NCBI GenBank assembly: GCA_018713255.1
Contig: DVFL01000006.1
Location: 1 to 64,000 of the forward strand
DNA: 64,000 nucleotides
Reading direction: 5' to 3'
Origin: Candidatus Cottocaccamicrobium excrementipullorum
Lineage (GTDB): Bacteria; Bacillota; Clostridia; Lachnospirales; Lachnospiraceae
Shown: positions 16,074 to 45,214 of the stretch, one piece after another
How the letters are laid out: every line of letters starts with the position of its first letter
Position numbering within the stretch: position 1 is the stretch's first letter
The notes under the pieces: generated by a model
What the model saw: only the letters and a program-made list of their open reading frames with translations
Databases searched by the model: none
Told to the model about the DNA's origin: nothing
Made by a program: the position numbers and the translations under genes

Positions 16074-16077
16074 AAGT

Positions 16078-16120
16078 TTGTTCGTTTTGTTCGCTCTGTT
16101 CGTTTTCCGTGTGCTATATT
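16078..16120 (+). promoter_or_regulatory. Predicted late promoter with triple direct repeat
   Basis: GTTCG recurs at 16080, 16089 and 16098 with an exact 9-bp period (units like TTTGTTCGT). A -10 box TATATT follows at 16115-16120, with no consensus -35 at the expected place. This is the layout of an activator-dependent promoter. The late regulator gene ends 5 bp upstream. The transcript would start near 16127. Confidence 0.65.
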
Positions 16121-16179
16121 GTATCCTGCAAGCATCGATGAGATGCAAGCTCTTACTTATCCTCTTTGTTTTTTTCGCC

Positions 16180-16279: not shown

Positions 16280-16283
16280 TTAT

Positions 16284-16357
16284 CGCAGGGTGGAGCAGTT
16301 TGGTAGCTCGCCGGGTTTATGCCCCGGAGGTCGCAGGCTCGAATCCTGCCCCTGCAA
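16284..16357 (+). tRNA. Initiator-type tRNA with anticodon UAU (reads AUA)
   Basis: A cloverleaf of 74 nt. Acceptor GCAGGG pairs with CCCTGC, while C1 (16284) faces A72 (16356) unpaired, the mismatch that marks bacterial initiator tRNAs for formylation. The anticodon stem has GGG (16313-16315) opposite CCC (16323-16325), the initiator P-site signature. The D-arm GAGCAGTTTGGTAGCTC and variable loop AGGTC match tRNA-fMet. The loop TTTATGC gives anticodon TAT where fMet has CAT. The T-loop is CTCGAAT, with C at position 54 instead of T. CCA is not encoded. It lies just upstream of late genes that start with ATA. Charging with Ile or Met cannot be told from sequence. Confidence 0.9.
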
Positions 16358-16390
16358 TTTTACTGTCATAATTTCATAATTTTCTCCTGC

Positions 16391-16427
16391 AAAGGACGTC
16401 TAGGAATTGGCCTGGACGTCCTTTTTT
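16391..16427 (+). terminator. Strong terminator between the tRNA and the terminase genes
   Basis: AAAGGACGTC (16391-16400) and GACGTCCTTT (16415-16424) form a perfect 10-bp stem followed by a T-run. No promoter is visible in the 35 bp before the terminase gene, so late mRNA should arise by readthrough. The tRNA would then be made in excess over late mRNA. Confidence 0.8.
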
Positions 16428-18706: not shown

Positions 18707-20410
18707 ATAAACGTTATCGGAAATAGGCCGGGAGGAATCTATCCGCTAAGGAATACTGGCGGAGGAGGCGGGACCGGAACTACAAACTACAATAATCTGA
18801 CCAATAAGCCGTCCATAAACGGCGTGACGCTGCAGGGTGATCTGAGTGCCGAGGATTTGGGATTGATGCCGGCGGATTCGCAAAGCAGCCTAGAACAGGC
18901 CATTGAAACCTACTACGCTCTCCGCCGCACCGGAAAAGTCTACCAGACAAAGTTATGGAAGTTTTTAGACAACCCATCCAGTGCTGGAGAAAAGCTGTTG
19001 GATAATACAGGGCTGGCGTTTGCCCCGTCCACAGATGTGTCTGAAGCTGAGGACGATTACCTGAACGGCCAGAACCACCTGTTTGACTGGGTACATGTAA
19101 ACTACATCCGGGACAGTGATAGTACACCCCGTCCAACCGCAATCGAGGGTATGGACAGCTACAAAACAACCGGAGCGGTGGATGTTGGGGCCATGCAGAT
19201 GAGCTGGTGGTTTAAATGGGACGCCAGCAATCCAGATTATGACCTGATTACCATTTCTGACCTGCCGCACCCAGAATTGGGATTACAGCCTTGGACTGAA
19301 TGCAAAAAGGCAGACGACACGGTTGCGCCCTGGTGCATTGGCAGCGCTTATTTTTCCGGCATTGCATCTGATGGCCTGCCGCGGTCACAGCCGGGGTTAA
19401 AGCCAGAACGTGCCCAATCGCATAATAACATGATCACCAATTACCAGAAAAAGGGAGAGGGATATTGGGGCGCGGGCTCTGAAGCGAATACGTTCCAATT
19501 TATCATGAACGCCATCAAGGGCGCAACCAAAAACAGCCAGACGCTGTATGCCGGATGTACATCCTACAATTATCAGTACGAGGCGGCTGTGCAGTCCGAA
19601 ACCGCCCACACCTATTTCCCGGTCACGAATGCCCAGGCTGGCAATCTGGTGGTAGGCAGCTATGTATCCGTGGGATATGGCAGCAACAATGATGGCGCGG
19701 TTAATCAGGACAGGGGACAATCATCGGTACATGCCTATGCAGATGATGTAAAAATTCTATCCATTGAAACCCTGGATGGCAGCAATATGGCGGTGTATCT
19801 TGATATCCCAGAAGAGTCGGCATTTAACACGATGCCGCATGTCCACACCGAAACACTATCAGCCCCCATCATCCTGTCAACAATGCACTGGTGGTCTGGG
19901 GCTACGGATGCGGTCAAAGGACGGCATGATGGTTCACCGGGCAGCAACACTAACGGCAAGTATCCGTACCGAGTACAGGGCCGCGAGTATGCAGTGGGCG
20001 GATATATGGTTGCATCGGATACGGTCATGGATTTGCAGGCCGATTTTACCAAAAAAGTGCTGGTGGCGCCAAAGGGCGTAGCGCACTCTTCGTCTGACAC
20101 AACAATCCGCAGTACATACACAGAGATTGGCACAATCCCGGCGGCGGCCGCAGGCAACAACGCAGATTGGTGGGTTGGGGACGTAACCCTGGACAATGAC
20201 ACCGGCGCATGGTTTCCATCCGTTGAGGGTTCTGGCTCTTCCCAGGGTACTGGTGACAGGGTTTATGCTGGCGGCGCAACAGCAACATCTGGTCTCCGCG
20301 AGTATTTACAGGGCGGGGACCTCAGGGCCGGCTCGAATGCCGGCGCTTCCTACCTGTACTGCTGGTACTGGCTGGGCGGGTCGAACTGGTACTACCTGTC
20401 GCGCGATTAA
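18707..20410 (+). CDS. DGR target: variable receptor-binding-type protein (ATA start)
   Basis: 567 aa. The N-terminus carries the tail-collar/fibre motif YNNLTNKPSINGVTLQGD (residues about 29-46), which precedes the first canonical in-frame start (GTG 18824) and so must be translated. ATA at 18707 is 8 nt after GGAGG and follows an in-frame TGA, so no ATG start is possible. The body is strand-rich. The C-terminal 32 residues (VR, 536-567) form a C-type-lectin-like surface with SYLYCWYWLGGSNWYYL, diversified by the retroelement. It sits between terminase and portal, an unusual place for a fibre gene. Adhesion function is inferred. Confidence 0.9.
   Translation: MNVIGNRPGGIYPLRNTGGGGGTGTTNYNNLTNKPSINGVTLQGDLSAEDLGLMPADSQSSLEQAIETYYALRRTGKVYQTKLWKFLDNPSSAGEKLLDNTGLAFAPSTDVSEAEDDYLNGQNHLFDWVHVNYIRDSDSTPRPTAIEGMDSYKTTGAVDVGAMQMSWWFKWDASNPDYDLITISDLPHPELGLQPWTECKKADDTVAPWCIGSAYFSGIASDGLPRSQPGLKPERAQSHNNMITNYQKKGEGYWGAGSEANTFQFIMNAIKGATKNSQTLYAGCTSYNYQYEAAVQSETAHTYFPVTNAQAGNLVVGSYVSVGYGSNNDGAVNQDRGQSSVHAYADDVKILSIETLDGSNMAVYLDIPEESAFNTMPHVHTETLSAPIILSTMHWWSGATDAVKGRHDGSPGSNTNGKYPYRVQGREYAVGGYMVASDTVMDLQADFTKKVLVAPKGVAHSSSDTTIRSTYTEIGTIPAAAAGNNADWWVGDVTLDNDTGAWFPSVEGSGSSQGTGDRVYAGGATATSGLREYLQGGDLRAGSNAGASYLYCWYWLGGSNWYYLSRD
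20312..20409 (+). repeat. DGR variable repeat (VR)
   Basis: 98 bp at the 3' end of the target gene, aligned without gaps to TR at 20487-20584. Twelve positions differ and every one is an adenine in TR (A to T seven times, A to G four times, A to C once). This is the signature of adenine-specific mutagenic retrohoming. Confidence 0.97.
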
Positions 20411-20486: not shown

Positions 20487-20584
20487 GGCGGGGACCTCAG
20501 GAACGGCTCGAATGCCGGCGCATCCTACCTGAACTGCAGGAACAGGCTGAGCAGGACGAACTGGAACTACCTGTCGCGCAATTA
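20487..20584 (+). repeat. DGR template repeat (TR)
   Basis: Donor copy of the VR, 77 bp downstream of the target gene and 181 bp before the RT gene. Read in the VR frame it is rich in AAC and AGG codons exactly at the variable residues (NGSN, YLNCRNRLSRTNWNYL). It would be transcribed as part of a TR RNA continuing towards RT. Confidence 0.97.
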
Positions 20585-20765
20585 CACAATAATATTTTGC
20601 GTCGTGTTTCGCAGCTGAAGCTGTAGCCTAAAGGCTCTTTGGGTTGAAATAACCCTAAAATAAGTAAGAAAGGCCAGCCGAAATCCCGGCGGGGAAAGTA
20701 GGGGTGTGCATGGAGTTGCACACCGGGGCTAGTAGAAAAACCGAAAACCCTCTTTAAAATAATCG

Positions 20766-21911
20766 ATGAAAAGATTATGCAAGGACGTTGACATAACGGA
20801 CAGGGGCCTGATTAGTCGGGCAGTATACGCCTGCCTGCGAAAAAAGTACAAGCGTAATGATACTATTAAATTCCTGTCGGGATTCACAGTTCTGACAGGC
20901 AACCAAATCAGATACATCCTCCACCGCGGAGAGAAGGTAGCTCTGCGGTGGATTGTGGAGCGGGTGATTGATTCCGTCCGAGAAGAGATCATCACCTGGA
21001 ACATATCCTTCCCGGCCATCTGGTACCGCATTAAAGTTGACGGGTCGAGTGGGAAACTGAGAAGAATCGGCATCCAGAACATTAAACAGCAGCTATACGA
21101 TTACATCGCTGTTGAGGCCCTGGAACCGTTCTGGCGGCGCTTTGGGGAATATCAATATGCATCGATTAAGGGCCGTGGAACCACAAAAGGAAAGAACGTG
21201 ATCCAGCGGTGGATGCGGAACCCTAACATGCGGTACTTTGTAAAACTGGATGTTCGTAAGTGCTTTGAGAGCATCGACCACGATAAGTTGACGAACTTCC
21301 TTCGGCGGCACATTAAAAATGATCTCCTTCTTAGGCTGGTTGAACTTTTGGTTGACAGCTTTGAACAGGGATTAAGTATTGGCTCTTACCTGAGCCAGTA
21401 TCTATGCAATGCCTACATGAGCATCATCTACCACCAGATCAAAGAGCACATGTATAAAATCAGGCGCGGAACTAGGACAAACCTGGTGCATCGGTGCCTG
21501 ATTTACATGGATGACATCCTGATGATCGGAAGCCGCAAACGTGACCTGGAAAAGGCAATTAAGCTGGTATCCGTCACGGCAAAAGACATGGGCCTGACGA
21601 TTAAACCTAATTACCAGGTTTACCCCGTTGACAGATATTGCGTTGATATGCTGGGGTATAGGGTTTACCGGACGCACACGGAGATTCGTAAGGCAATATT
21701 TATCCGCGCCCGCCGGGCATACAAAAAGTTCCGAAAGAACCCGACCACCAAGGCGGCTCGGAAATGTATATCGTACTATGGCTATTTCAAACATAGCAAT
21801 AGTCGCAGAATTGAGAAACGTTGGAAAGTAAAGAGCACCATTAAAAACTGTAAAGGAGTGATACGGTATGGCTATGAAAGCACGGTTTTCCAGTCAGCAA
21901 CAACCGGTTAA
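20766..21911 (+). CDS. DGR-type reverse transcriptase
   Basis: 381 aa. RT motifs in order: FVKLDVRKCFESID (about 158-171), the DGR hallmark LSIGSYLSQYLCN (203-215) with SQ, and the catalytic YMDDILMIG (247-255). The C-terminal thumb is basic. It copies TR RNA with adenine errors into cDNA that replaces VR. The ATG at 20766 is preceded by an in-frame stop; its ribosome site is weak, suggesting low expression. No Avd-like accessory gene is evident nearby. The end overlaps the next gene by 44 bp. Confidence 0.96.
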   Translation: MKRLCKDVDITDRGLISRAVYACLRKKYKRNDTIKFLSGFTVLTGNQIRYILHRGEKVALRWIVERVIDSVREEIITWNISFPAIWYRIKVDGSSGKLRRIGIQNIKQQLYDYIAVEALEPFWRRFGEYQYASIKGRGTTKGKNVIQRWMRNPNMRYFVKLDVRKCFESIDHDKLTNFLRRHIKNDLLLRLVELLVDSFEQGLSIGSYLSQYLCNAYMSIIYHQIKEHMYKIRRGTRTNLVHRCLIYMDDILMIGSRKRDLEKAIKLVSVTAKDMGLTIKPNYQVYPVDRYCVDMLGYRVYRTHTEIRKAIFIRARRAYKKFRKNPTTKAARKCISYYGYFKHSNSRRIEKRWKVKSTIKNCKGVIRYGYESTVFQSATTG

Positions 21912-22241: not shown

Positions 22242-22442
22242 ATGACCAGTTTTTTAAATTCCGAGATGATACTGTCTGTAATACAGCTGACGGAAATACA
22301 GTACAAAGCCTATCAGAAGTTCATGGAATTGTCTGGCGGTGACCGAACAGAAGCGGCCAGACAGACGGGGATTTTTATATCTGCGATAATGCATAGACCA
22401 GAGGGAGGTGGGAGCAATAGCAAAGAACAGGGCCCGACCTAA
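22242..22442 (+). CDS. Hypothetical small phage protein before portal
   Basis: 66 aa from ATG at 22242 after GGAGGATAATAGAGC. It contains VIQLTEIQYKAYQKFMELSG and a glycine-rich end. The last 26 bp overlap the portal gene, so the portal's GGAGG lies within its codons. Not recognised. Confidence 0.6.
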   Translation: MTSFLNSEMILSVIQLTEIQYKAYQKFMELSGGDRTEAARQTGIFISAIMHRPEGGGSNSKEQGPT

Positions 22443-23874
22443 AAAGAAACCGAAGCAGGCGCCTGTGGCCACTATGGACGCCTTTTCCAATCCGGCGGCC
22501 CGCCTGGGATTTGGCACAATGGACCTGACACAGGCCACCACATACCCCATGACCAGGCTGACACAGAACTATGAGCTATTGACTAGCCTGTACCGGGATA
22601 ACTGGATCGTGCAAAACATTGTTGCCACCATCCCTAATGACATGATCCGAAAGTGGTATGAGATAAAAAGCGGCATCGCCCCGGACTATATCGACCAGAT
22701 GGCCAAACTGGAGCGCCGAACACAGCTAAGAAAAAAGCTTCTCCTGGGGATGTACTGGGGGCGGTTATATGGTGGCGCAGTCGGCGTGATCCTGATCAAA
22801 GGCCAGAACGATATGAGCCAGCCTCTGGACCTGGACATGGTGCTGCCGGGATCCTTCTTGGGGCTGCAGATCCTGGATCGCTGGTCTGGTGTGTACCCGG
22901 AAGGTGAACTGGTGACAGACCCATCTGATCCTGATTTTGGATTGCCTGCCTATTACACGATCCGGGACGATACCACCGGCTACATGGTGGCAAGAGTACA
23001 CCACAGCCGGATCATCCGGTTCATCGGCCGGGAACTCCCCTGGCTGGAACAGGTGACTGAGGTTTACTGGGGCGAGTCAGAACTGGAAGCCATCTATAAC
23101 GAAATAGTCCGCCGAGACAATGTGGCAGCCAATATTGCAGCGCTGACCTTCCGGGCAAACGTAAATTACATTGAGGCAGACGGGCTGGATCAGCTTCTGG
23201 GAACAGCAAACACAGAAATGCAGAGGCGTTTCTGGAACACGCTTGCAGCCCAATCTATGATGGAGAGCAATTTTGGTACTAGGGTGATCAACAAGGGAGA
23301 TGCAATCCACAATACCCAGTACACATTTACTGGTTTGCCTGAGGTGTATGACCGGGTAATGATGGATGTGGCCGGTGCGGCCAGAACACCGGTAACAAAA
23401 CTCTTCGGCCGCTCTCCTGCCGGCCTGAACGCCACCGGAGAAGCAGATATGCAGAATTATTATGACTACATAGACGGACTGCGGGAAAACGATCTGCGGC
23501 CAATCATTGAACGCCTGCTGCCGATTATGGCGTTATCTGCCTGGGGCATGATTCCGGATGATCTGGATATCAAATTCCCCACCATGCAGACCGCAGATGC
23601 TAAGGAACAGGCGGAAATCACGGAGCGGAACACGGCAACCATCCTGTCTGTCTACCAGAATGATTTAATGGATGCGGCTACGGCTATGCAGGAACTGCAG
23701 GCGATAGGCGAGGAAACTGGAATATTCAGTAAAATTTCTGATGAATCCATTGAAGCGGCCCGCGGGCAGACGTACACCAATCAACGGCTGATGGCCGACC
23801 CGCTGGCAGGCCTGGAAATGACCGGAAACCAGCCGCGGGAGCCGAATGAGGAGGAACAAAATGGGAATTTTTGA
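22417..23874 (+). CDS. Portal protein, DUF1073-like (ATA start)
   Basis: 485 aa, forming the dodecameric DNA gate at the capsid vertex. The region from LTQNYELLTSLYRDNWIVQN through the DRVMMDVAGAARTPVTKLFG core matches DUF1073-type portals. The frame has a GTG at 22408, but that codon overlaps the GGAGG itself. ATA at 22417, 8 nt after GGAGG and followed by GCA AAG AAC, gives the natural N-terminus AKNRARPKKKPKQ. This is one of the clearest ATA starts. Confidence 0.92.
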   Translation: MAKNRARPKKKPKQAPVATMDAFSNPAARLGFGTMDLTQATTYPMTRLTQNYELLTSLYRDNWIVQNIVATIPNDMIRKWYEIKSGIAPDYIDQMAKLERRTQLRKKLLLGMYWGRLYGGAVGVILIKGQNDMSQPLDLDMVLPGSFLGLQILDRWSGVYPEGELVTDPSDPDFGLPAYYTIRDDTTGYMVARVHHSRIIRFIGRELPWLEQVTEVYWGESELEAIYNEIVRRDNVAANIAALTFRANVNYIEADGLDQLLGTANTEMQRRFWNTLAAQSMMESNFGTRVINKGDAIHNTQYTFTGLPEVYDRVMMDVAGAARTPVTKLFGRSPAGLNATGEADMQNYYDYIDGLRENDLRPIIERLLPIMALSAWGMIPDDLDIKFPTMQTADAKEQAEITERNTATILSVYQNDLMDAATAMQELQAIGEETGIFSKISDESIEAARGQTYTNQRLMADPLAGLEMTGNQPREPNEEEQNGNF

Positions 23875-25483: not shown

Positions 25484-26746
25484 ATAATTCAATACTACGG
25501 TTACACTATCAGCCCTAACCAAATCGAGACCAATGACGGGTTCTTGATCTGCCGCAATGTCCCGATTGCCAGGATAGGTGACCAGGATTACCTTGGGGCC
25601 GAAATTGGCCTGGATGGTGCTGACGCAGGGAAAGTTATCCCTGTGCATCGCAGTCCGGAAGAGGTTTTTTCCCAGGCCACAATGGCGAGTTTTGAAGGAA
25701 AGCCAGTAACCAATAATCACCCACCTGGAATCATCGGGCCGGATGATGTGGCAATATACGAAAAGGGACATGCCCAGAACATCCGGAGGGGATCTGGCGA
25801 ATGGGCAGATTACATCCTTGCAGACCTTCATATTCATGACCGGGAACTGATTGACGCAATCCAGGGTGGAAAGCGCGAGATCAGTTGCGGCTACGAATGC
25901 GATTATGCCCAGGATGAGGATGGCAGCTACAGTCAAAAAAATATCAGAGGGAATCACATAGCAGTCGTGGACCGGGGAAGAGCCGGGAAACGGGCTGCTA
26001 TTTTAGATTCAAATACAATTCAGAAACCGGCGGATAAACCGCCAGAAAGGAAGGGAAGCATAAAAGGTAAGTTTTTAGAATGGTTTGGTCTGGCGGTGAA
26101 AGACAAAAGCCCGGACGAAATCGCGAAAATGGCGCAAGATGCAGCCGCTGTAATGGATGAAGACACGCCTTCTCCTACCCCTCAGGAAAAGGAGGAGGAA
26201 AAGAAGGAAGAGTCAGTCAAAGACGAAGGATGCGGAGGAAAAGGACTGTTTGATTCCGTGGATGATGAAGCCCTGGATGGCCTGCTGAAAAAGCTGATGG
26301 CCCGTAAGGCGGCAAAAGAAGCTGCTGAGAAAGCTGCTGAAGGGGACGGAGATCCACTGGAGAAGACCATTGCAACGTTGACCGGCGGAGCTGCAGGGGA
26401 TCCTGAAGAGGCCCATGTTGTACCTGCTGAGGAAATGGACAAAGGATGCGGAGACTGTGGCTCTGGTGCATTGGATAAAGCCCTGGCTGCAGGGATTTTA
26501 AAGGCGATGCGTCCGGTGGTTGCTGGAATCAAAGACGAAAAGCAGCGAACTGCTGTAGCTGATGCCCTGATCAAATGCGTTACTGTGCAGGACGGTGCGT
26601 CAGACATTGCCAAAATCATGCAGGCAGCGCAAAAAAATGCGCAGAAGACCGCAGACAGTCGGCCGGATCAGCAGAAAGTGTACGACCAGGTGCAGGCAAT
26701 GTATGATGCGCGTAATCCCCACAAAACCAAGAAGGAGGACAAATAA
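25484..26746 (+). CDS. DUF2213 head-module protein (ATA start)
   Basis: 420 aa. The N-terminus YYGYTISPNQIETNDGFL, then ICRNVPIARIG, is the conserved opening of DUF2213 proteins. It lies upstream of the first canonical start (TTG 25544). ATA at 25484 follows GGGAGGGG by 10 nt, and a TGA is in frame just before. Residues 30-170 form the conserved domain, possibly protease- or scaffold-like. The remainder is acidic and helical (KEEEKKEESVKDEG) as in scaffolding regions. It precedes the cement and capsid genes. Confidence 0.85.
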   Translation: MIQYYGYTISPNQIETNDGFLICRNVPIARIGDQDYLGAEIGLDGADAGKVIPVHRSPEEVFSQATMASFEGKPVTNNHPPGIIGPDDVAIYEKGHAQNIRRGSGEWADYILADLHIHDRELIDAIQGGKREISCGYECDYAQDEDGSYSQKNIRGNHIAVVDRGRAGKRAAILDSNTIQKPADKPPERKGSIKGKFLEWFGLAVKDKSPDEIAKMAQDAAAVMDEDTPSPTPQEKEEEKKEESVKDEGCGGKGLFDSVDDEALDGLLKKLMARKAAKEAAEKAAEGDGDPLEKTIATLTGGAAGDPEEAHVVPAEEMDKGCGDCGSGALDKALAAGILKAMRPVVAGIKDEKQRTAVADALIKCVTVQDGASDIAKIMQAAQKNAQKTADSRPDQQKVYDQVQAMYDARNPHKTKKEDK

Positions 26747-27293: not shown

Positions 27294-28319
27294 ATAGCAT
27301 TTAAAAACGTCGGAACGTTTGATTTGGGTCAGAATGCATCCGGCCCGGTAAGACCATTTGCAATGGATGCCGCCGGCATCGCGTCCGGACAGGCATTTTT
27401 GACTTCTGAGCTGGAAAAGCGGGACATGATGGTACGGACCCCGCTTACCAGTTTTACTTATAACCGCGATCTGCCAATCCGCGTGGGCGGCGGATGGGCT
27501 GAATTTGCATCTGCCATGCAGGTAGGCTATGGCATCACTGGTGGATCTGGGGATGGAATTATGACTGCCGCATCTGCTAATGGAATCCCGATGATTCAGG
27601 CAGATTTCTCCAAGGGCCTGTTCAAGACCCACATGATTGCCGCTGGAACCCGTGTACAGTGGATTGATATGCAGCGCGGCAATATGACTGGGAGGAACCT
27701 GGACAGCCTGCTGCGGGACGGTCTGAGAATGACCTACGACAAGCACATGGACGAGAATGCATATGTAGGCTTTGCGGCCTATGGCACTACCGGCCTGTTA
27801 AATAATCCTGACGCTCTAGTTACCGATGCAGCAGCCACTGGCTCCTCTTCCGGCACTACGTTTAAATCTAAAACACCTGACCAGATCCTGCAGGACGTTA
27901 ACGATGCAATCCTGACCGCGTGGGAGCAGGCTGAATGGGATCTGGATGCGGTGCCGAACCACATCCTGATGCCCTACGAGCAGTACAACTACCTTGCCAC
28001 CACCCGGGTTTCCGAACTGGCAGAAAAAACCATCCTTACCTTCCTGCTGGAAAACAACGTGGCCAAGCAGAATGGATCTGATCTGTTTATTGGCGCTACG
28101 GCATGGTGCAAGGGTGCTGCCGCAGATGGATCTGATGATCGGATGGTGGTTTACTGCAACAAGGAGCGGTATATTGCTATGGATGAGCTGGTTCCGCTGA
28201 CTAGAGCCATGACCAGCCCTAATACCCAGTATTTCTGCTATGATACGGCCTATGCCGGCAATGTGTCCGAGGTCGAAGTGTTCTACGATCAGACCATCGT
28301 GTATGTAGATGGAATCTAA
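27294..28319 (+). CDS. Major capsid protein, DUF2184-like (ATA start)
   Basis: 341 aa. The N-terminus AFKNVGTFDLGQNASG and the body with QGARTRVQW-like strands, LMPYEQYNYLATTRVSE and DRMVVYCNKERY fit the DUF2184 major capsid family. The first canonical in-frame codon is a TTG at residue 11 without a ribosome site. ATA at 27294, 10 nt after GGAAGG and followed by GCA TTT, is the expected start. This should be the most abundant phage protein, so its start is a good test case. Confidence 0.9.
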   Translation: MAFKNVGTFDLGQNASGPVRPFAMDAAGIASGQAFLTSELEKRDMMVRTPLTSFTYNRDLPIRVGGGWAEFASAMQVGYGITGGSGDGIMTAASANGIPMIQADFSKGLFKTHMIAAGTRVQWIDMQRGNMTGRNLDSLLRDGLRMTYDKHMDENAYVGFAAYGTTGLLNNPDALVTDAAATGSSSGTTFKSKTPDQILQDVNDAILTAWEQAEWDLDAVPNHILMPYEQYNYLATTRVSELAEKTILTFLLENNVAKQNGSDLFIGATAWCKGAAADGSDDRMVVYCNKERYIAMDELVPLTRAMTSPNTQYFCYDTAYAGNVSEVEVFYDQTIVYVDGI

Positions 28320-29576: not shown

Positions 29577-30074
29577 ATATCGAGTTTCGGAAGCCAAATG
29601 CGGAAAAGATTCGCTGAACTACGGAAGGCCGGGCAGGATGTGCCTAAAATCATGATGGAAGTAGCCGAGGCGGCAACTACCGAAGCGGTGCATACCGCAG
29701 CCAATAACACCCCACCCAACGGGGCGAATATTGCCGGCACGAATACCCGAAGCGGTCAAATGGCGCAGCATTGGGAGCTGGACAGTCAAACAAAGCCAGC
29801 GTATTCGGGCGGCAGTGTCCGGACAGCGCTGGCCAACAATATGCAGTATGCGTCCTATGTAAATGACGGGCACCGGATGGATCAGCACTATGTTCCTGGA
29901 CTGATTAAAAATGGAGGACTGCTGGAAAGAGTTGACCCGGATGTAGGCGGCATTACCGTAGGAACAAAGACTACCTACGTCAAGGGGCTATACATGAAGG
30001 AGAAGGCCATTGGAAAATACCGGGATACCGTTCGAAAAGAACTGGACCGGCGGGTAAGGGAGGCGTTTAAGTGA
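29577..30074 (+). CDS. HK97-gp10-like tail completion protein (ATA start)
   Basis: 165 aa. The helix RKRFAELRKAGQDVPKIMME, then the GTNTRSGQMAQHW region and NMQYASYVNDGHRM are typical of gp10-like proteins. The ATG at 29598 has no good ribosome site. ATA at 29577 lies 7 nt after GAGG in GAGGTGATTAC and gives SSFGSQMRKRF, the likely true N-terminus. It ends by overlapping the tail terminator gene. Confidence 0.82.
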   Translation: MSSFGSQMRKRFAELRKAGQDVPKIMMEVAEAATTEAVHTAANNTPPNGANIAGTNTRSGQMAQHWELDSQTKPAYSGGSVRTALANNMQYASYVNDGHRMDQHYVPGLIKNGGLLERVDPDVGGITVGTKTTYVKGLYMKEKAIGKYRDTVRKELDRRVREAFK

Positions 30075-30523: not shown

Positions 30524-30746
30524 GGCTGTTGCGACGTCGCAACGGGAGAAAAAGAAATATCCAGCCTCGAAATTGCTGAAAAGCGAAACGTTTTCCGGGT
30601 ACCAGCAGGATTTTGCTAAGGTTATACTGGGGAACCAGGAATATACTGTTCCGGATGCGAAGGATAAGCTGGATAAAATGCTGAAAAAGCAGGAAGTGAA
30701 AAAAGCTGAAGGCGAAGAGAAAGAAGGAGGTAATGCCGACGCATAG
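30501..30746 (+). CDS. Hypothetical small basic tail-module protein
   Basis: 81 aa from ATG after GGAGGAAAATA. Highly charged: KKYPASKLLKSETFSGYQQD and AKDKLDKMLKKQEVKK. Residues 10-14 (VATSQ) are encoded by a perfect palindrome also found at 14713. The stop TAG overlaps the ATA start of the sheath gene (ATAG). Resembles small proteins preceding sheath genes in this phage type. Confidence 0.7.
   Translation: MSESKKTKAVATSQREKKKYPASKLLKSETFSGYQQDFAKVILGNQEYTVPDAKDKLDKMLKKQEVKKAEGEEKEGGNADA
30528..30543. repeat. 16-bp perfect palindrome inside a gene (copy 2)
   Basis: GTTGCGACGTCGCAAC, identical to 14713-14728 and again in the frame that reads V-A-T-S-Q, near the disordered N-terminus of a small tail-module protein. 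Confidence 0.8.
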
Positions 30747-32107
30747 CAGGTGGAGTTTGGACAAGCCAAAACAAGGTCCTTCCTGGCGTGTATATCAATG
30801 TCAAAAGCCAGGGAAGTGTTAACGCAAACGTAGGCAGCCGGGGGACGGTAGCAATCGCTGAACCGTTATCCTGGGGGCCGACTGGGGTGGTACAAACGAT
30901 TACTCCGGGGGAAGATCTGCGGCCGTATATCGGATATGATATCACGAACGCAAAAGCAATGTTTTTGCGGGAAATGATGAAGGGAAGCGATACGACCGCA
31001 GGCCCAAGCAGAATCCTGCTTTACCGGCCAGAGGGAACAAGCGGGGTAAAGGCCACAGCAAGTATCGGAGAGTTAACGGCAACCGCTCTCTATGAGGGCG
31101 TGAGGGGAAACGATATCGCTATCATTGTCCAGGAGCAGGTTGATTCCAGCAATATTTATGATGTTTCCACAGTGGTAGACGGTAGCGTTGTAGATGAACA
31201 GTCCATTACCGATCTTTCACAGTTGGAAGATAATGCATGGGTAACATTTACTGGAACCGGTACCACTATCCAGGAAACTGCAGGAACACAGTTATCCTCA
31301 GGAGTCGACCCAGCTGTAGCAACTGCAGATTACGCAGATTTCCTGACGGCCATTGAACCCTATCAGTTTGATGTGATTGTGTATGATGGCACAGACGCTT
31401 CCACCATTCAGGCAATCGCCCAGTTTGCGGAGCGGGTATCTAACAGCGTGGGGAAGAAATGCCAGGCAGTAATGGCTGGCACAACAGCAGCCGGATGCAA
31501 CAGCGAATTTGTGATTGCGGTTAATAATGGCGTGATTCTGGATGACGGAACGGAGCTGACGGCACAGCAGGCTACCTGGTGGGTAGGCGGCGCAGAGGCG
31601 GGCGCACTGTATTACCAGTCCCTGACCTATGCCCAGTATCCCAATGCGGCGGAGGGGAATCCAAAGCTTACGGATGCGGAAGCTGAGGCTGCGATTTCTG
31701 CGGGATATCTGTGCTTTATTGATAATTTCGGAAGCGTAAAGGTATGCCAGGATATCAACAGCCTTACCACCTTTACGGTGGATAAGGGCCAGGAATTTTC
31801 CAAAAACCGTGTAATGCGGGTACTGATGCAGTTCTGCAACGATGTCTACGAGTATTTCAGCAACTACTTTATCGGTAAGGTAGATAACAACCCTACCGGG
31901 AGAAACCTGCTGAGAGGCTGGATTGTCGGATACCTGAATGAGATGCAGGCAAACAATGGCATACAGGATTTTGCGGCCGAAGATGTTACAGTGGAAGCTG
32001 GAAATAGCGTGGATGCCGTGCTGATTAACGTAGTGCTGCATCCGGTGGACAGTATTGAGAAGATCTATATGACTGTCACCGTATCCGTCAGCACAACGGC
32101 AGAATAA
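30743..32107 (+). CDS. Tail sheath protein, XkdK-like (ATA start)
   Basis: 454 aa. The N-terminus AGGVWTSQNKVLPGVYINVK is the standard opening of Firmicute phage sheath proteins. It precedes the first canonical codon (GTG 30788). ATA at 30743 follows GGAGG by 12 nt, is followed by GCA GGT, and shares bases with the previous stop. The C-terminal part (LRGWIVGYLNEMQANNGIQDF to MTVTVSVSTTAE) is the conserved sheath core. It shows the phage is a myovirus with a contractile tail. Confidence 0.95.
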   Translation: MAGGVWTSQNKVLPGVYINVKSQGSVNANVGSRGTVAIAEPLSWGPTGVVQTITPGEDLRPYIGYDITNAKAMFLREMMKGSDTTAGPSRILLYRPEGTSGVKATASIGELTATALYEGVRGNDIAIIVQEQVDSSNIYDVSTVVDGSVVDEQSITDLSQLEDNAWVTFTGTGTTIQETAGTQLSSGVDPAVATADYADFLTAIEPYQFDVIVYDGTDASTIQAIAQFAERVSNSVGKKCQAVMAGTTAAGCNSEFVIAVNNGVILDDGTELTAQQATWWVGGAEAGALYYQSLTYAQYPNAAEGNPKLTDAEAEAAISAGYLCFIDNFGSVKVCQDINSLTTFTVDKGQEFSKNRVMRVLMQFCNDVYEYFSNYFIGKVDNNPTGRNLLRGWIVGYLNEMQANNGIQDFAAEDVTVEAGNSVDAVLINVVLHPVDSIEKIYMTVTVSVSTTAE

Positions 32108-32125: not shown

Positions 32126-32599
32126 ATATCATTTTTGCTGGAACGTGACGCTCTGAATGGCAAAAGCGGCAGCGCGTTTATGACCATTGATGGTCAGAAC
32201 ATCGAAATGTTTGGTATGAAAAAGTTTCAGTCCGATGCAGAATTCCAGGAGGCGGATTTCAAGGTAGTCGGCACCACGCTGGTACAGAAAAAAACTACCG
32301 GAGTTTCGCTTACCGGCTCTATGACGATTTATTATGGCACTCCGCATTTCTTAAGAATTCTGCAGGATTATTTAAAAACCGGTCGCCTGCCATATTTTAC
32401 ATTGCAGATTACAAATGATGATCCCAGCGTTAGCGTTGGCACACAAACGGTTGTTCTGTATAACGTCAAACTGCAGAAGATGCCAGTAGCAATGCTGGAT
32501 GCAGACGCGGATTTTCTGGAGATGGAGGTAAGCTTCTCTTACACCAATCTGGAAGTTTTAAATTATTTCAATGACCAGCCAGAACAGCTGGGCAATTAA
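32126..32599 (+). CDS. Tail tube protein, XkdM-like (ATA start)
   Basis: 157 aa. SFLLERDALNGKSGSAFMTI, then QNIEMFGMKKFQSDAEF match XkdM-type tube proteins. ATA at 32126 lies 9 nt after GGAGG; the only alternative is a TTG three codons later without proper spacing. Directly after the sheath gene as in PBSX. Confidence 0.92.
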   Translation: MSFLLERDALNGKSGSAFMTIDGQNIEMFGMKKFQSDAEFQEADFKVVGTTLVQKKTTGVSLTGSMTIYYGTPHFLRILQDYLKTGRLPYFTLQITNDDPSVSVGTQTVVLYNVKLQKMPVAMLDADADFLEMEVSFSYTNLEVLNYFNDQPEQLGN

Positions 32600-33038: not shown

Positions 33039-33208
33039 TTGAGGAGAATTCCATGGATGTGCAGCTGTGCCAGCGCATGCTGTGCGACCATGGAATTTTC
33101 CCGCTTGATGTAGTTACTCGTCCGTTGAGGGAACGGTTGCTAATGTCGAAACTTTTCGAGAAAGAAAAAAAGGAATTAGAGGAGGCAAAGAGAAATAGGA
33201 ACAATTAA
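33035..33208 (+). CDS. Frameshifted C-terminal part of the tail assembly chaperone
   Basis: 57 codons read only after the -1 shift at 33029-33035. The fused protein is 198 aa from 32613. It contains VQLCQRMLCDHGIFPLDVV and a charged coil KLFEKEKKELEEAKRN. An internal ATG (33053, after GAGGAGAATTCC) could also make the 51-aa part alone. The layout equals the GT protein of many phages, which loads the tape measure. Confidence 0.8.
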   Translation: MIEENSMDVQLCQRMLCDHGIFPLDVVTRPLRERLLMSKLFEKEKKELEEAKRNRNN

Positions 33209-35240
33209 TGAAACATTGATGTTGACAGATAGCTTTTCGGCTTCTTTTTATTCTTTTATCGACCTCGGGCAACGGGCAATTCAAACAGCTGAACGGCTTG
33301 ACCAAAATTTGACAGATGTAATGACGGTTTCTTCTGGGAATATCCTAACAGAGCTACGAAATATGGGAAACCAGCTGGAATCTCAAAATCAGCAGCTCGT
33401 TGAGCTGATTCAGAACCAGCAGCAGTATACCGAAGAAGTAAACCATTCGAATCGTTCCGCGGGGAGTTTAGTATCGACCCTACGAAATGCGGCTGCAGCA
33501 ATCGGCGCAACTGCATTGACTAGGGAATTTTTGCAAACTTCCGATGAAATGTCACAGATCACCGCAAAAATGAATTTAATCAACGATGGTCAGCAAAGCA
33601 CTGCAGAATTGCAAAATCTGGTCTATCAATCTGCACAGAGAACTCGGACGAGTTATGAGGCAACTGCCAACACTGTAGCACGGCTTGGCCAGAACGCAAA
33701 GGATGCCTTTAACAGTAACGCGGAAATGATACAATTCGCGGAAAATCTGAATAAAACATTTATTATCGCAGGGTCATCACAGGAAGAAATAGCTTCTGCG
33801 TCCTTGCAGTTGACGCAAGCTCTTGGATCTGGTGTTTTACGCGGCGAAGAATTGAATTCAGTGTTCGAATCTGCACCGGGATTAATCCAGAACATTGCTG
33901 ATTACATCGAAAATAATAACGCTCTTCTTTCTCAGACGGCCAAAATCCTGGATATGAATCCGGATGACCTGGCAGGAAACGTAAAGAAATATATTCGTGA
34001 TATAGCATCAGAAGGCGTACTTTCAGCTGATATCGTTAAAGGAGCGATTCTTTCTGCTACAGACGAAATAAATAGTCAATTTGAGGAAATTCCAATGACG
34101 TTATCCCAGGCATTTACTATGGGAGTAAACGCAATCCAGAAAGACTTGGAAGAAAGTTTTGCGAATTGGAACACATTCCTGAATACCGATGAGGGTCAGC
34201 GCACTCTCGGCCAGTTAGTAAGTTTATTTACTATTTTGGCTCAGGTTGGTGTTGGCGCGTTGTCTGTTGTCGGTCAAGGTGCTTTATGGGTATCACAGAA
34301 TTTGGACTTCATTCTCCCAATTTTGGCAGCCATTGGGGCAGCACTCTTAGTTGTTCACGGACAAGCTATATTAACTGCCGCAGCAAATGTTGCTGGCGGG
34401 TTGGCAACTGCATCGGCATGGGCACTTGCCCATCTTCCACTCATCTTATTGGCCGCTGCTTTTGCTTCTGGGTTAATTGCTGCCCAGCAATTCGGCCTTG
34501 GCATGGAAGAAGTTGGCGGATGGGTCGGGCAGGTGCTGGGAATGCTGTATGCCGTTGGCTATAACGTATTCGCCAGCCTGTGGAATGTGATTGCAGCCTT
34601 TGCGGAATTTTTTGCTAATGTCTGGAATGATCCGCTAGGGGCGACCGCACGCCTGTTTTTTGATGTATTCGACACAATTCTGGGAATCGTTGAGACGGTA
34701 GCAGGTGCCATTGATTCGCTTTTAGGAAGCAATTTAAGCAGCGCTGTTTCAGGATTCCGCAGCCAGTTATCCGGCTGGGTGGACGAAACGTTCGGAGAAA
34801 ATGCTATTCAGATCAAACGTATGGCCAATTTGGACGTAGCTGCTACCTCTCAGCAGTGGGGAACCGTCGGTTCTAATATTGGATCAAAATTGGATAACAT
34901 GAATATCAGTCTATCCGATATCGCTGGCGGAATTGGAGGGTTAAGTGATTTAGCGATTCCTTCTGCCGGAGATTTGGATGTTGGAGATGTCGGAACAGTC
35001 GGAAAGGTCAAGAGCATTGATGGAGATGTAAATCTATCGGATGAAGATATTAAGATGTACCGTGATCTGGCGGAACGCCGGTACATGACCAACCTTGAGC
35101 TTCAGACACTGGCCCCGCAAATTACCATTAATATTCCCAAGGGCGCCGGCGATAACATCAGCGAGCAAGACCTGGCAAACCGCTTAAAGACGATTCTGAT
35201 CCAGCAGCAGGCGGCGCATACCGCTATTGCACACGGGTAG
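33195..35240 (+). CDS. Tape measure protein (ATA start)
   Basis: 681 aa. GTINETLMLTDSFSASFYSF is the usual N-terminal opening; ATA at 33195 follows GGAGG by 9 nt and overlaps the chaperone frame. The only canonical alternatives are TTG/ATG codons at residues 8-9 with no site. Residues 30-270 carry the tape-measure N-terminal domain (LTQALGSGVLRGEELNSVFE). Residues about 350-460 are hydrophobic, membrane-inserting segments. It sets tail length. Confidence 0.93.
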   Translation: MGTINETLMLTDSFSASFYSFIDLGQRAIQTAERLDQNLTDVMTVSSGNILTELRNMGNQLESQNQQLVELIQNQQQYTEEVNHSNRSAGSLVSTLRNAAAAIGATALTREFLQTSDEMSQITAKMNLINDGQQSTAELQNLVYQSAQRTRTSYEATANTVARLGQNAKDAFNSNAEMIQFAENLNKTFIIAGSSQEEIASASLQLTQALGSGVLRGEELNSVFESAPGLIQNIADYIENNNALLSQTAKILDMNPDDLAGNVKKYIRDIASEGVLSADIVKGAILSATDEINSQFEEIPMTLSQAFTMGVNAIQKDLEESFANWNTFLNTDEGQRTLGQLVSLFTILAQVGVGALSVVGQGALWVSQNLDFILPILAAIGAALLVVHGQAILTAAANVAGGLATASAWALAHLPLILLAAAFASGLIAAQQFGLGMEEVGGWVGQVLGMLYAVGYNVFASLWNVIAAFAEFFANVWNDPLGATARLFFDVFDTILGIVETVAGAIDSLLGSNLSSAVSGFRSQLSGWVDETFGENAIQIKRMANLDVAATSQQWGTVGSNIGSKLDNMNISLSDIAGGIGGLSDLAIPSAGDLDVGDVGTVGKVKSIDGDVNLSDEDIKMYRDLAERRYMTNLELQTLAPQITINIPKGAGDNISEQDLANRLKTILIQQQAAHTAIAHG

Positions 35241-35254
35241 GAGGTGGGAAACGC

Positions 35255-35968
35255 ATACGGAGACTAAGCTCATCCGCAAAAATTTACGTCCGGTTTAGCG
35301 GCACGCGGGTAGTTATTCCGGTCAACCCGGAAGAAATCAGTATCAAGTACCCATCCAACAACAAGGATTATGACGTAATCGGAATTGGCCAGGTGGTTGT
35401 TCCAAGAAAGCCGGCTCTCAAAGAGATCAGCTGGGAAAGCTTCTTTCCTGCCTCCCGCCAGGCCCCATATGTTGATCCTGATGCCTATGATCCGGAAGAA
35501 TATGTGGATTGGTTTGAGCAGGCAATGAAAAAGAACCAAAAAGTCCGCCTGATCATCACCAGGGATGATCTATACAACACCAATATGCGTTGTATTGTGT
35601 CTGATTTTGAGACCACGGACAAAGGCGGCGAACCCGGAGACATGTACTATAGTGTCACATTTCGGGAATATCGGGATTACTCGCCTGAGGCGGTAAATAT
35701 TATTACTCCTGCCGCCGAACAGCCGGAACAGCAGCCTGTGGACGCCACGTCTGAGACTGAACGGCCCATTGAAACCCCGGTGTTGCGTGTGGGGGCTTCA
35801 GTCATTGCCAACGGTCAGTATTGGTATGACAGCTATGGCGCAAGGCCCTTCGGGACCGCAAATAATATCAGCACTACCGTAACCCGCATTGTGGAAGGAA
35901 ATCCCTATCCCGTGCATATTGGTTCTTACGGCTGGCTCCGGGCGGATCAGCTGCAGATTGTGGGGTGA
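35255..35968 (+). CDS. LysM/SH3-type baseplate protein, XkdP-like (ATA start)
   Basis: 237 aa. The N-terminal part (IYVRFSGTRVVIPVNPEEIS to VIGIGQVVVPRKPALKEI) is the conserved XkdP opening; 46 residues lie before the first canonical codon (GTG 35393). ATA at 35255 lies 10 nt after GGAGG. The C-terminus (VLRVGASVIANGQYWYDSYG) is SH3-like rather than LysM. It links tube and baseplate or binds the wall. Confidence 0.9.
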   Translation: MRRLSSSAKIYVRFSGTRVVIPVNPEEISIKYPSNNKDYDVIGIGQVVVPRKPALKEISWESFFPASRQAPYVDPDAYDPEEYVDWFEQAMKKNQKVRLIITRDDLYNTNMRCIVSDFETTDKGGEPGDMYYSVTFREYRDYSPEAVNIITPAAEQPEQQPVDATSETERPIETPVLRVGASVIANGQYWYDSYGARPFGTANNISTTVTRIVEGNPYPVHIGSYGWLRADQLQIVG

Positions 35969-36997: not shown

Positions 36998-37310
36998 TTT
37001 GATCGAAGTGATTCACGGAATCATACAGGAAACTAATGATGCGCAAAAGCCAGCAGATATCGCCTATGGAACCGTGATTGCTATATCCCCGTTGGCCATC
37101 CAAGTCCAGAGTACGATGCAGACGATTCCTGCTGCCGGGCTGATCCTAACATCGGGGGTGGTTGCCAAAACCGCGCAGGTCCAGGGTGGCCAAGGCGGCA
37201 CTGTGTCAATTAACGAGGGATTGGCAGCGGGTGATAAGGTCATTATGATCCGGGTGTCAAAGGGGAATCGCTACATTGTATTATCTAAGGTTCAGGAGGT
37301 GGGAACATAG
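36990..37310 (+). CDS. Baseplate protein, XkdR/DUF2577-like
   Basis: 106 aa from TTG at 36990 (ADLIEVIHGIIQETND), GGAGG 11 nt upstream. AYGTVIAISPLAIQVQST and DKVIMIRVSKGNRYIVLSK match the small OB-fold DUF2577 proteins. The final TAG overlaps the ATA of the next gene. Confidence 0.85.
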   Translation: MADLIEVIHGIIQETNDAQKPADIAYGTVIAISPLAIQVQSTMQTIPAAGLILTSGVVAKTAQVQGGQGGTVSINEGLAAGDKVIMIRVSKGNRYIVLSKVQEVGT

Positions 37311-37738
37311 CAACATTACCGCAAAACGTGGGGATTAACGCCCCGCTGACCTATGTAGACCTGCCGACCGATACATTTATTATTGACTGGTCCACCAATC
37401 AGATTGCTGGCACAGGTACTGGGCTGGCAGCCATGCGGCAGACCGTGGAAATCATTCTAAATGTTGAGCGGTTCCGCTGGCAGATTTATGACAGCAATTT
37501 CGGGTCAGAACTTCAGGATTTGATCGGAGACGAGCTGGACTACATTCAGTCTGAACTGCCCCGGAGAATCGAGGATGCGTTTTCGGTGGATAGCCGGATT
37601 TTATCTGTGGATAACTATGTGTTTAATACTGACGGCCGGGGGAATCTGACCGTCAGCTTTGACGTTCAGACAGCATACGGGACAATCTCAGAGGAGGTGA
37701 CGGTAAACAATGATCGATTTGAGCGGATACACAACTAA
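37307..37738 (+). CDS. Baseplate wedge protein, XkdS/DUF2634-like (ATA start)
   Basis: 143 aa. ATLPQNVGINAPLTYVDLP and QTVEIILNVERFRWQIYDSN match DUF2634 (gp25-like wedge). ATA at 37307 lies 7 nt after GGAGG and is followed by GCA ACA; it shares bases with the previous stop (ATAG). The canonical alternative is a GTG at codon 8 with no site. Confidence 0.9.
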   Translation: MATLPQNVGINAPLTYVDLPTDTFIIDWSTNQIAGTGTGLAAMRQTVEIILNVERFRWQIYDSNFGSELQDLIGDELDYIQSELPRRIEDAFSVDSRILSVDNYVFNTDGRGNLTVSFDVQTAYGTISEEVTVNNDRFERIHN

Positions 37739-39420: not shown

Positions 39421-40176
39421 ATAGGGCAGTATAATTCTGCAGTGATTACCAATGCCGGGCAGCAGCTGATTGCGAATGCAATCGCTGGGAGCGGAGAAAT
39501 CGCTATTACAGCAGTTAAAACATCCAGCCATACCTACTCTGCGTCAAATATTCCCAATCTGACAGATTTGGAAGACATTGAGCAGACCGTGCAGAATCCG
39601 TCTGCTGGAGTATTTAACAATACGATGGTGCAAGTATCCGCACGGTTTGATAATCAGGATGTTTCCAGCCCCTATCTGATTCAGACGCTGGGGATTTACG
39701 CACAGATCGGAAGCGGTTCCGAAACGTTGCTGGCTGTTTCTTTAGCAACCAGCCCAGACCAGATGCCAGCGGAAAGTGACGCATCATTATCAGCGTTTAT
39801 TTATAACATTCAGATGACCATTCAGCAAGCATCCCAACTGACTTTTACTGTTAATCCGGCTGGGACTGCCACTCTTCAGGATCTCCAGGACATGCTGGCA
39901 CTAATCCGCCGCGTGATCCTGGTTCCCTTTCCTGCATCCGGATGGTCTAGTTCCCCGCCATACACCCAGACGGCGCAGGCATCGGGCATTGAGTCCATCG
40001 ATACGCCGACGGTGGGGCTTTATGTGCCTGTGGGGACAGGCGATGACGAGGAAGCAGCATTAAAAGCGGCCTATGGGTGCGTGACATATGTAGATACCGG
40101 AAAAGGGACAATTACAGCTACTTGTGTTGGCAAAAAACCTGAGGACGAATTTACCATGGCAGTTAAGGGGGTGTAA
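39421..40176 (+). CDS. Tail fibre / collar protein (ATA start)
   Basis: 251 aa. GQYNSAVITNAGQQLIANAI with SGEIAITAVKTSSHTYSASN is the common N-terminal baseplate-attachment domain of Firmicute fibre proteins. ATA at 39421 lies 9 nt after GGAGG; the canonical alternative (GTG, codon 8) has no site. The C-terminal 70 residues are strand-rich. Confidence 0.88.
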   Translation: MGQYNSAVITNAGQQLIANAIAGSGEIAITAVKTSSHTYSASNIPNLTDLEDIEQTVQNPSAGVFNNTMVQVSARFDNQDVSSPYLIQTLGIYAQIGSGSETLLAVSLATSPDQMPAESDASLSAFIYNIQMTIQQASQLTFTVNPAGTATLQDLQDMLALIRRVILVPFPASGWSSSPPYTQTAQASGIESIDTPTVGLYVPVGTGDDEEAALKAAYGCVTYVDTGKGTITATCVGKKPEDEFTMAVKGV

Positions 40177-45164: not shown

Positions 45165-45214
45165 CACCTTGCCAAGGTGGGGGCCGCGGGTTCGAATCCC
45201 GTCTCGCGCTTTTT
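45165..45214. repeat. attR core (displaced tRNA-Gly 3' fragment)
   Basis: Fifty bases identical to attL at 193-242. It is not a functional tRNA: the acceptor 5' strand and D-arm are missing. It marks the right boundary of the prophage. Confidence 0.95.

Follow-up and report, generated by a model that had tools for sequence, protein, structure and literature searches.

The start codon generally counts as a highly fixed element of the genetic code, with one initiator identity per bacterium. Phages can reassign stop codons with the help of suppressor tRNAs, and in these cases a phage tRNA goes together with recoded codons in late genes. Natural AUA starts are described in Staphylococcus aureus for infC, ccpN, and citZ, of which ccpN and citZ were tested with reporters according to the available text (PMC13009471). 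In a reconstituted system, an initiator with the anticodon UAU gives 39.1% full-length product at AUA, above that of AUG with CAU in the same assay, and the G/U wobble of AUG with UAU is tolerated in initiation (PMC10158994).

The window analysed here is the whole stretch of 64,000 nucleotides of contig DVFL01000006.1. It contains a prophage with an initiator-type tRNA gene whose anticodon is UAU. The best explanation is that start codons of late genes have been recoded from AUG to AUA by this dedicated phage initiator tRNA, and we give this reading a probability of about 0.86. It is built on what can be read from the DNA: the tRNA gene and its conservation, ATA as the start-site codon of 11 late genes, and the co-occurrence of the tRNA with AUA (or GUA) start sites.

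Prophage Setting of the tRNA Gene

The prophage is about 45 kb long. Its ends are an exact 50-base repeat at tRNA-Gly, and both copies are present. The features at the ends and around the tRNA gene are as follows.

193–242, + strand: left attachment repeat, 50 bases identical to 45165–45214, at the tRNA-Gly 3' end
347–1846, − strand: phage integrase
15648–16073, + strand: phage transcription regulator, matching PHROG transcription-regulation families, one of them an Alt-like activator; last gene 5' of the tRNA
16077–16124, + strand: putative late promoter, three TTTGTTCG-like repeats at 9-nt intervals and then a −10-like GTGCTATATTGTAT, by inspection
16284–16357, + strand: initiator-type tRNA gene with the anticodon UAU, from ARAGORN, Rfam, direct reading, and copies in related phages
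16391–16424, + strand: terminator-like hairpin of 14 pairs, 3' of the tRNA and before the small terminase gene
45165–45214, + strand: right attachment repeat, exact 50-base repeat

The tRNA gene is placed between the transcription regulator and the terminase genes. The TTTGTTCG-like repeats and GTGCTATATTGTAT are read as a putative late promoter. A comparable layout is seen in the related phages L043, An14, and L046, the last of which has no tRNA, and a sigma-70 scan made no call at 16077–16124. The tRNA region has two terminator-like sites, and shuffles have 1.6 on average. At the prophage end, the region 1917–2711 (− strand) adjoining the integrase shows a weak match to MazF-like growth inhibitors.

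Identity of the tRNA

From the sequence alone, this gene had been proposed to be an initiator tRNA with a changed anticodon, and ARAGORN, Rfam, and direct reading confirm a well-formed initiator-type tRNA with UAU at 16284–16357. ARAGORN reports tRNA-Ile(TAT) at 16283–16358. Rfam RF00005 matches 16284–16357 with 59.5 bits (E = 2.5e-10), and the 1–72 pair is marked as non-standard. By direct reading, the tRNA has C1×A72, A11:U24, the anticodon stem CCGGG/CCCGG, and A73, and CCA is not encoded. The anticodon loop is TTTATGC, corresponding to U33, the anticodon UAU, and G37. Small departures are G37 and C54 in the T-loop; C54 is also present in the L043 copy.

The host genome contains two ordinary CAT initiators, to which the window tRNA shows 82% and 79% identity. 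It also contains genes which we take to be the elongator tRNA-Met and a tRNA-Ile2(CAU)-like tRNA for AUA. No UAU anticodon is found among the host tRNA genes read. tRNA-Ile(GAT) is not seen in the host draft, from which some tRNA genes are missing.

Three related phages (L043, An14, and L045) carry the same tRNA, and together with the window copy they represent three distinct sequences. The 1–72 mismatch of tRNA-fMet is present as C1×A72 in the window, L043, and L045, and as C1×U72 in An14; these nucleotides, paired in elongator tRNA-Ile(UAU), are thus unpaired in 3/3 distinct copies. Purine 11 and pyrimidine 24 are A:U in all three, and the three G:C pairs beside the anticodon loop are invariant (3/3). 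Of the elongator tRNA-Ile(UAU) traits, the anticodon UAU and A73 are present in the window tRNA, while A37, which would serve as the t6A37 determinant, is replaced by G37 in all three distinct copies. The trait of tRNA-fMet that is lost is the anticodon CAU, which is UAU in the window, L043, An14, and L045.

It could be considered that the gene encodes an elongator tRNA-Ile reading internal AUA codons, as the anticodon, A73, and the ARAGORN label suggest; some related rumen phages do have elongator-like tRNA-Ile(TAT). However, C1×A72, A11:U24, the GGG:CCC pairs, and G37 are either initiator-like or contrary to tRNA-Ile, the share of ATA among Ile codons is 9% in late genes and the same in the genes at 46–64 kb, and the host presumably already reads AUA with its tRNA-Ile2(CAU)-like gene. 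An elongator role is extremely improbable.

The tRNA in Related Phages

The large terminase served to collect 51 relatives, 22 of them in viral contigs and the other 29 in genome contigs. An initiator-like tRNA is called by ARAGORN at four of these loci, which represent three phages: L043, An14 (L021, identical in sequence to L044), and L045. A CAT anticodon in related phages had been set beforehand as the outcome speaking against the original prediction. The search for the same tRNA in other phages instead recovers it in three of them, in the corresponding position 5' of the terminase genes, and all three copies found by ARAGORN are TAT.

The L043 tRNA is identical to the window tRNA (74/74), and the aligned identities of the diverged copies are 62/74 for An14 and 58/74 for L045. 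Comparison of the three sequences reveals double-sided changes at the pairs 4–69, 13–22, and 51–63. No change affects the anticodon stem, and C33 in L045 is the sole change in the loop. One relative (L016, 5078–5150; L017, 2450–2522; also L235, 5767–5839) has a decayed relic of an initiator-like tRNA in this position before the terminase genes.

The clear relic in L016/L017 and C54 in the window copy could indicate that the window gene is itself a decaying phage tRNA whose anticodon has drifted. The paired changes in three stems, the maintenance of the anticodon and the anticodon stem in two diverged copies, and the match of AUA starts with the anticodon all argue against decay, which has a very slight probability.

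The search was extended to 69 portal relatives with a covariance model, including matches up to E = 1. The eight matches include the L016 relic, a second weak one on the same contig, and L212, L246, and L213. These last three were rejected as UAU initiators: they are elongator-like tRNA-Ile(TAT) genes (L212, 2953–3024; L246, 2870–2941; L213, 1231–1302) with paired 1–72, and no Shine-Dalgarno-preceded ATA starts were counted with them. Weak matches in L250 and L205 have no ARAGORN call. The covariance model gives no match in 46 sheath relatives, where the DNA of up to 10 kb on each side may miss the tRNA site, as the An14 locus there does.

Pattern searches for UAU initiators detect two in the family (397 genomes), in G000 and in G369, the latter on a contig with the An14 sequence; one in the class (391 genomes), in G000 itself; and one viral contig (An14). 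A viral pattern search using the D-arm of the window tRNA finds nothing. Patterns for initiator bodies with other anticodons give 5 and 8 matches in viral contigs, and these were discarded, as ARAGORN finds no tRNA in the 13 loci. A possible parallel case in MT835577.1 (L012/L163, 2871–2944), a human faecal phage record, is initiator-like with the anticodon CAA, which would read UUG, and has an encoded CCA and an imperfect T-arm. It was not accepted. In a coarse Shine-Dalgarno scan of this record, TTG is not among the top codons, but ATG is also rare. The phage initiator of MT837596.1 (L015, 1090–1162) has the anticodon CAT and a short D-loop, and its loop ends in the same unusual way (G37 and C38); it is possibly akin to the ancestor of the UAU tRNA.

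AUA Start Sites in the Late Genes

If the tRNA functions as an initiator, AUA starts are expected, and they had been predicted from the tRNA alone. ATA at the start site of 11 late genes, with ATG in relatives, supports this prediction. The start codons of 28 late genes up to 42041, where counting stops, were curated by hand, and they are 11 ATA, 10 ATG, 4 GTG, and 3 TTG. Gene-by-gene comparison of the window with An14 revealed many window genes with ATA in this position, and all 11 ATA start sites sit behind a Shine-Dalgarno motif. The AUA starts found are all in late genes.

18707–20410, + strand: diversity-generating retroelement target protein; L043 and L045 also ATA
22417–23874, + strand: portal protein; in-frame GTG 3 codons upstream, within the Shine-Dalgarno motif
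25484–26746, + strand: head maturation protease; long Shine-Dalgarno spacing of 12
27294–28319, + strand: major head protein (capsid); long Shine-Dalgarno spacing of 11
29577–30074, + strand: neck/tail completion protein; start aligned with homologues
30743–32107, + strand: tail sheath; An14 also ATA; long Shine-Dalgarno spacing of 12
32126–32599, + strand: tail protein adjoining the sheath, PHROG 365, probably the tail tube; start aligned with homologues
33195–35240, + strand: tape measure; GTA in An14
35255–35968, + strand: endolysin-family gene among the tail genes, PHROG 380; An14 also ATA
37307–37738, + strand: baseplate wedge subunit; start aligned with homologues
39421–40176, + strand: tail fibre; start aligned with homologues

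In ten of the 11 genes, no in-frame ATG, GTG, or TTG is present between the previous stop codon and the ATA; the exception is the portal gene with its GTG. The next canonical codon is 3–46 codons downstream of the ATA, and in the tube gene it is a TTG 3 codons in. The three long Shine-Dalgarno spacings (11–12) and the alternative starts at the portal (GTG) and tube (TTG) count against recoding.

The diversity-generating retroelement lies between the terminase and the portal (18707–20410, 20487–20590, and 20766–21911). The end of the 18707 gene (20312–20404) differs from the template copy 175 bases further at 11 positions, all of which are A in the template, and a reverse transcriptase follows the template copy. 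In An14, the portal is directly after the terminase.

Start Codons in Homologues and in Phages without the tRNA

The codons aligned with the ATA starts were counted among distinct homologues, omitting the An14 duplicates (L021, L044, L079, and L181) and collapsing identical start regions. Of 43 sheath homologues, 42 have ATG as the aligned codon, and the exception is An14, which has ATA and carries the tRNA. ATG is also the aligned codon for the tube (39/41), the neck protein (33/39, plus 2 GTG), the protease (41/54), the baseplate gene (21/29), the tape measure (19/28, plus 4 GTG), and the tail fibre (17/22, plus 2 GTG). For the capsid it is seen in 36 of 45, and all 45 have ATG within 6 codons. 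The alignments of the 35255 gene are offset, and a canonical codon is no more than 6 codons away in 29/30 homologues, An14 (ATA) being the exception. The 18707 gene has two homologues, L043 and L045; both have ATA, and both contigs carry the tRNA.

In the sheath, tape measure, and 35255 genes, the sole homologue without a canonical codon within 6 codons is An14 each time (ATA, GTA, and ATA). An14 is the one other tRNA-bearing phage whose contig covers these three genes, and these 2 ATA and 1 GTA are the only ones among the 25 genes compared. As the tRNA is rare, its correlation with AUA rests on few phages, and most genes lie beyond what the short L043 and L045 contigs cover.

The portal alignments are offset, which makes the aligned codon uninformative. 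Among its 62 homologues, the nearest canonical codon is ATG in 37, and 10 have none within 6 codons; the ATA aligned in 3 of the 62 is, on inspection, beside ATG or upstream of the motif. The near relative L046, whose portal is 88% identical, has ATG at the portal start and no tRNA within 6 kb before the terminase.

The covariance model detects no UAU initiator in fifteen hand-listed contigs that contain the sheath gene together with 4 kb or more of DNA before the portal; one of these contigs has the relic, and two have an elongator-like tRNA. The start codon is ATG in 15/15 for the sheath and in all 14 tube genes present. There is no ATA or GTA among the starts scored in these contigs at eight of the AUA-start genes. 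Start codons matching the new anticodon go with the presence of the tRNA: genomes that have it show them and genomes that lack it do not, with one ambiguous exception: in L019/L050/L085 (the same contig or phage, no tRNA detected), ATA aligns with the protease start, and an in-frame GTG is 3 codons upstream.

These distributions bear on another explanation, in which the AUA starts are real and are read weakly by the host CAU initiator to hold expression low, as in staphylococci, and the phage tRNA is incidental. Natural AUA starts in S. aureus reporters give approximately 10–30% of AUG, with no special tRNA mentioned in the available text (PMC13009471). On the other hand, AUA or GUA start sites are seen in the tRNA-bearing phages and the 15 contigs checked have none, apart from the one ambiguous case elsewhere, and the tRNA has retained UAU through divergence. 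Weak reading also sits poorly with capsid, sheath, and tube proteins, which are needed in large amounts. This explanation is quite improbable.

Statistical Controls

ATA occupies 46 of 7864 codons inside late genes. At that rate, 11 of 28 starts have p ~5e-18, with genes treated as independent and the list curated. In a scan of individual ORFs, the late region has 8 ORFs with a Shine-Dalgarno motif and ATA in place of any Shine-Dalgarno-preceded canonical start, against 14 with canonical starts, and the next non-canonical codons score 2. The relatives have 29 against 778 (Fisher p = 1.5e-6), and p is 3.4e-5 when An14 is added. The significance is lost under a stricter filter, which drops ATA if a canonical codon is within 10 codons downstream or upstream in the ORF: one ATA is left in the window (p = 0.096). 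The controls for the ORF scan and the strict filter were L080–L124, L182–L250, and 38 terminase relatives; L016, L017, L019, L020, L033, L035, L049, L050, and L052 were omitted, some of these contigs being present under other numbers.

Among ORFs without a canonical Shine-Dalgarno start, the motif followed by ATA is seen in 11/191 at 36 chosen control loci and in 10/19 in the late region of the window. Of these ten, 20793 was removed from the final list as it is inside a gene with ATG at 20766, and 25484 and 30743 were added from alignments. No + strand ORF in the early region, at 46–64 kb, or at 64–98 kb has such an ATA replacing a canonical start. In two looser scans for the motif and codon, a few ATA also occur outside the late region; in one of them, ATA is seen twice in the early region (4482 and 6731, each beside ATG), once at 46–64 kb, in L077 (1), and in L078 (1 on each strand). 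The controls of the other loose scan were 32 relatives and two host stretches, again chosen loci.

Proposed Decoding and Charging, and Possible Benefit

The proposed recoding would work as follows. The UAU initiator is encoded by the prophage at the head of the late region, and many late virion genes would have switched from AUG to AUA to match it. During lytic growth, the tRNA would be transcribed, receive its CCA end, and be charged by a host enzyme. It would then be formylated because of the 1–72 mismatch, be placed in the P site because of the GGG:CCC stem, and start translation at AUA by Watson–Crick pairing. AUG should also be read through wobble at U34, and GUA through first-position wobble. 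The latter could explain the GTA of the An14 tape measure, in the way that CAU reads GUG. The in vitro initiation with AUA and UAU makes the decoding plausible (PMC10158994). Expression, charging, and formylation of the tRNA, and the dependence of late translation on it, are what we infer.

Charging is the weak step, because G37 cannot carry t6A and the loss of C34 should bar MetRS, which needs C34. Ile seems more likely than Met as the amino acid on the UAU initiator. For bacterial IleRS, t6A37 is a strong determinant, and the window tRNA also lacks the minor Ile determinant pairs listed in the available text of the same paper (PMC9976931). The second residue is A, S, or G in 8 of the 11 AUA-start proteins, which does not separate Ile from Met.

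With the tRNA gene leading the late region and the AUA starts found confined to late genes, late translation may need a phage RNA. The likely benefit would be that translation of the late genes requires a phage factor and continues when the host initiator tRNA is attacked, and the changed loop might spare the UAU initiator from nucleases cutting the host initiator.

It can also be speculated that the tRNA chiefly serves to escape host nucleases cutting the initiator anticodon loop: the changed loop and U34 would avoid cutting, AUG would still be read by wobble, and AUA starts would have arisen by later drift. Phage tRNAs with anticodon-loop changes evading host nucleases are reported (PMC10264068), and the tolerance of AUG/UAU pairing in initiation is in agreement (PMC10158994). 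Yet nuclease escape alone does not account for ATA in 11 of 28 late genes, and according to the available text phages generally avoid encoding a target tRNA when the anticodon itself is the target, as with tRNA-fMet and VapC (PMC10264068). Escape as the chief function is unlikely.

A stronger form of start-codon recoding is a private start channel. Late virion proteins would begin at AUA (and GUA) with a non-Met residue, most likely formyl-Ile, and would be poorly made without the phage initiator; a phage RNA would control late translation, which would be unaffected if the host initiator were destroyed. This form is tentative, and we consider it somewhat doubtful.

Comparison with Known Systems

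If the recoding is true, gene finders restricted to ATG, GTG, and TTG place the starts of genes such as those for capsid and sheath wrongly in phages of this type, and the UAU initiator system is a testable case for the evolution of initiator identity.

The phage tRNA resembles bacterial tRNA-fMet in the 1–72 mismatch, A11:U24, the GGG:CCC anticodon stem, and the overall sequence. It differs in UAU in place of CAU, in G37, in being carried by a phage, and in having a matching set of AUA starts. Nuclease-evading phage tRNAs likewise have a changed anticodon loop, but as we understand the available text they keep their decoding identity (PMC10264068). Changes that spare the anticodon, which we read as the trait of that family, are not what is seen in the window tRNA: C34 has become U34, the anticodon is changed, and the genes match it.

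The S. aureus genes infC, ccpN, and citZ share the AUA start, and an extended Shine-Dalgarno motif precedes infC and ccpN. Unlike the phage set, they are single host genes with lowered expression, and no dedicated tRNA is mentioned in the available text (PMC13009471). Engineered initiators with changed anticodons also combine an initiator body with another anticodon and start at the matching codon, both in the in vitro set (PMC10158994) and in orthogonal initiation (PMC13232202); the phage tRNA differs from what is described there in being natural and in having its own recoded genes.

In the open-access literature searched, changed anticodons were found on engineered initiators, and on no initiator tRNA native to a phage. 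A natural second initiator with its own start codons would constitute viral start-codon recoding, a natural counterpart of engineered orthogonal initiation. In our assessment, recoding of start codons through a dedicated viral initiator tRNA represents a new kind of system. Its nearest analogue is the reassignment of stop codons in phages, from which it differs in that the UAU initiator would alter the start signal and not a stop codon.
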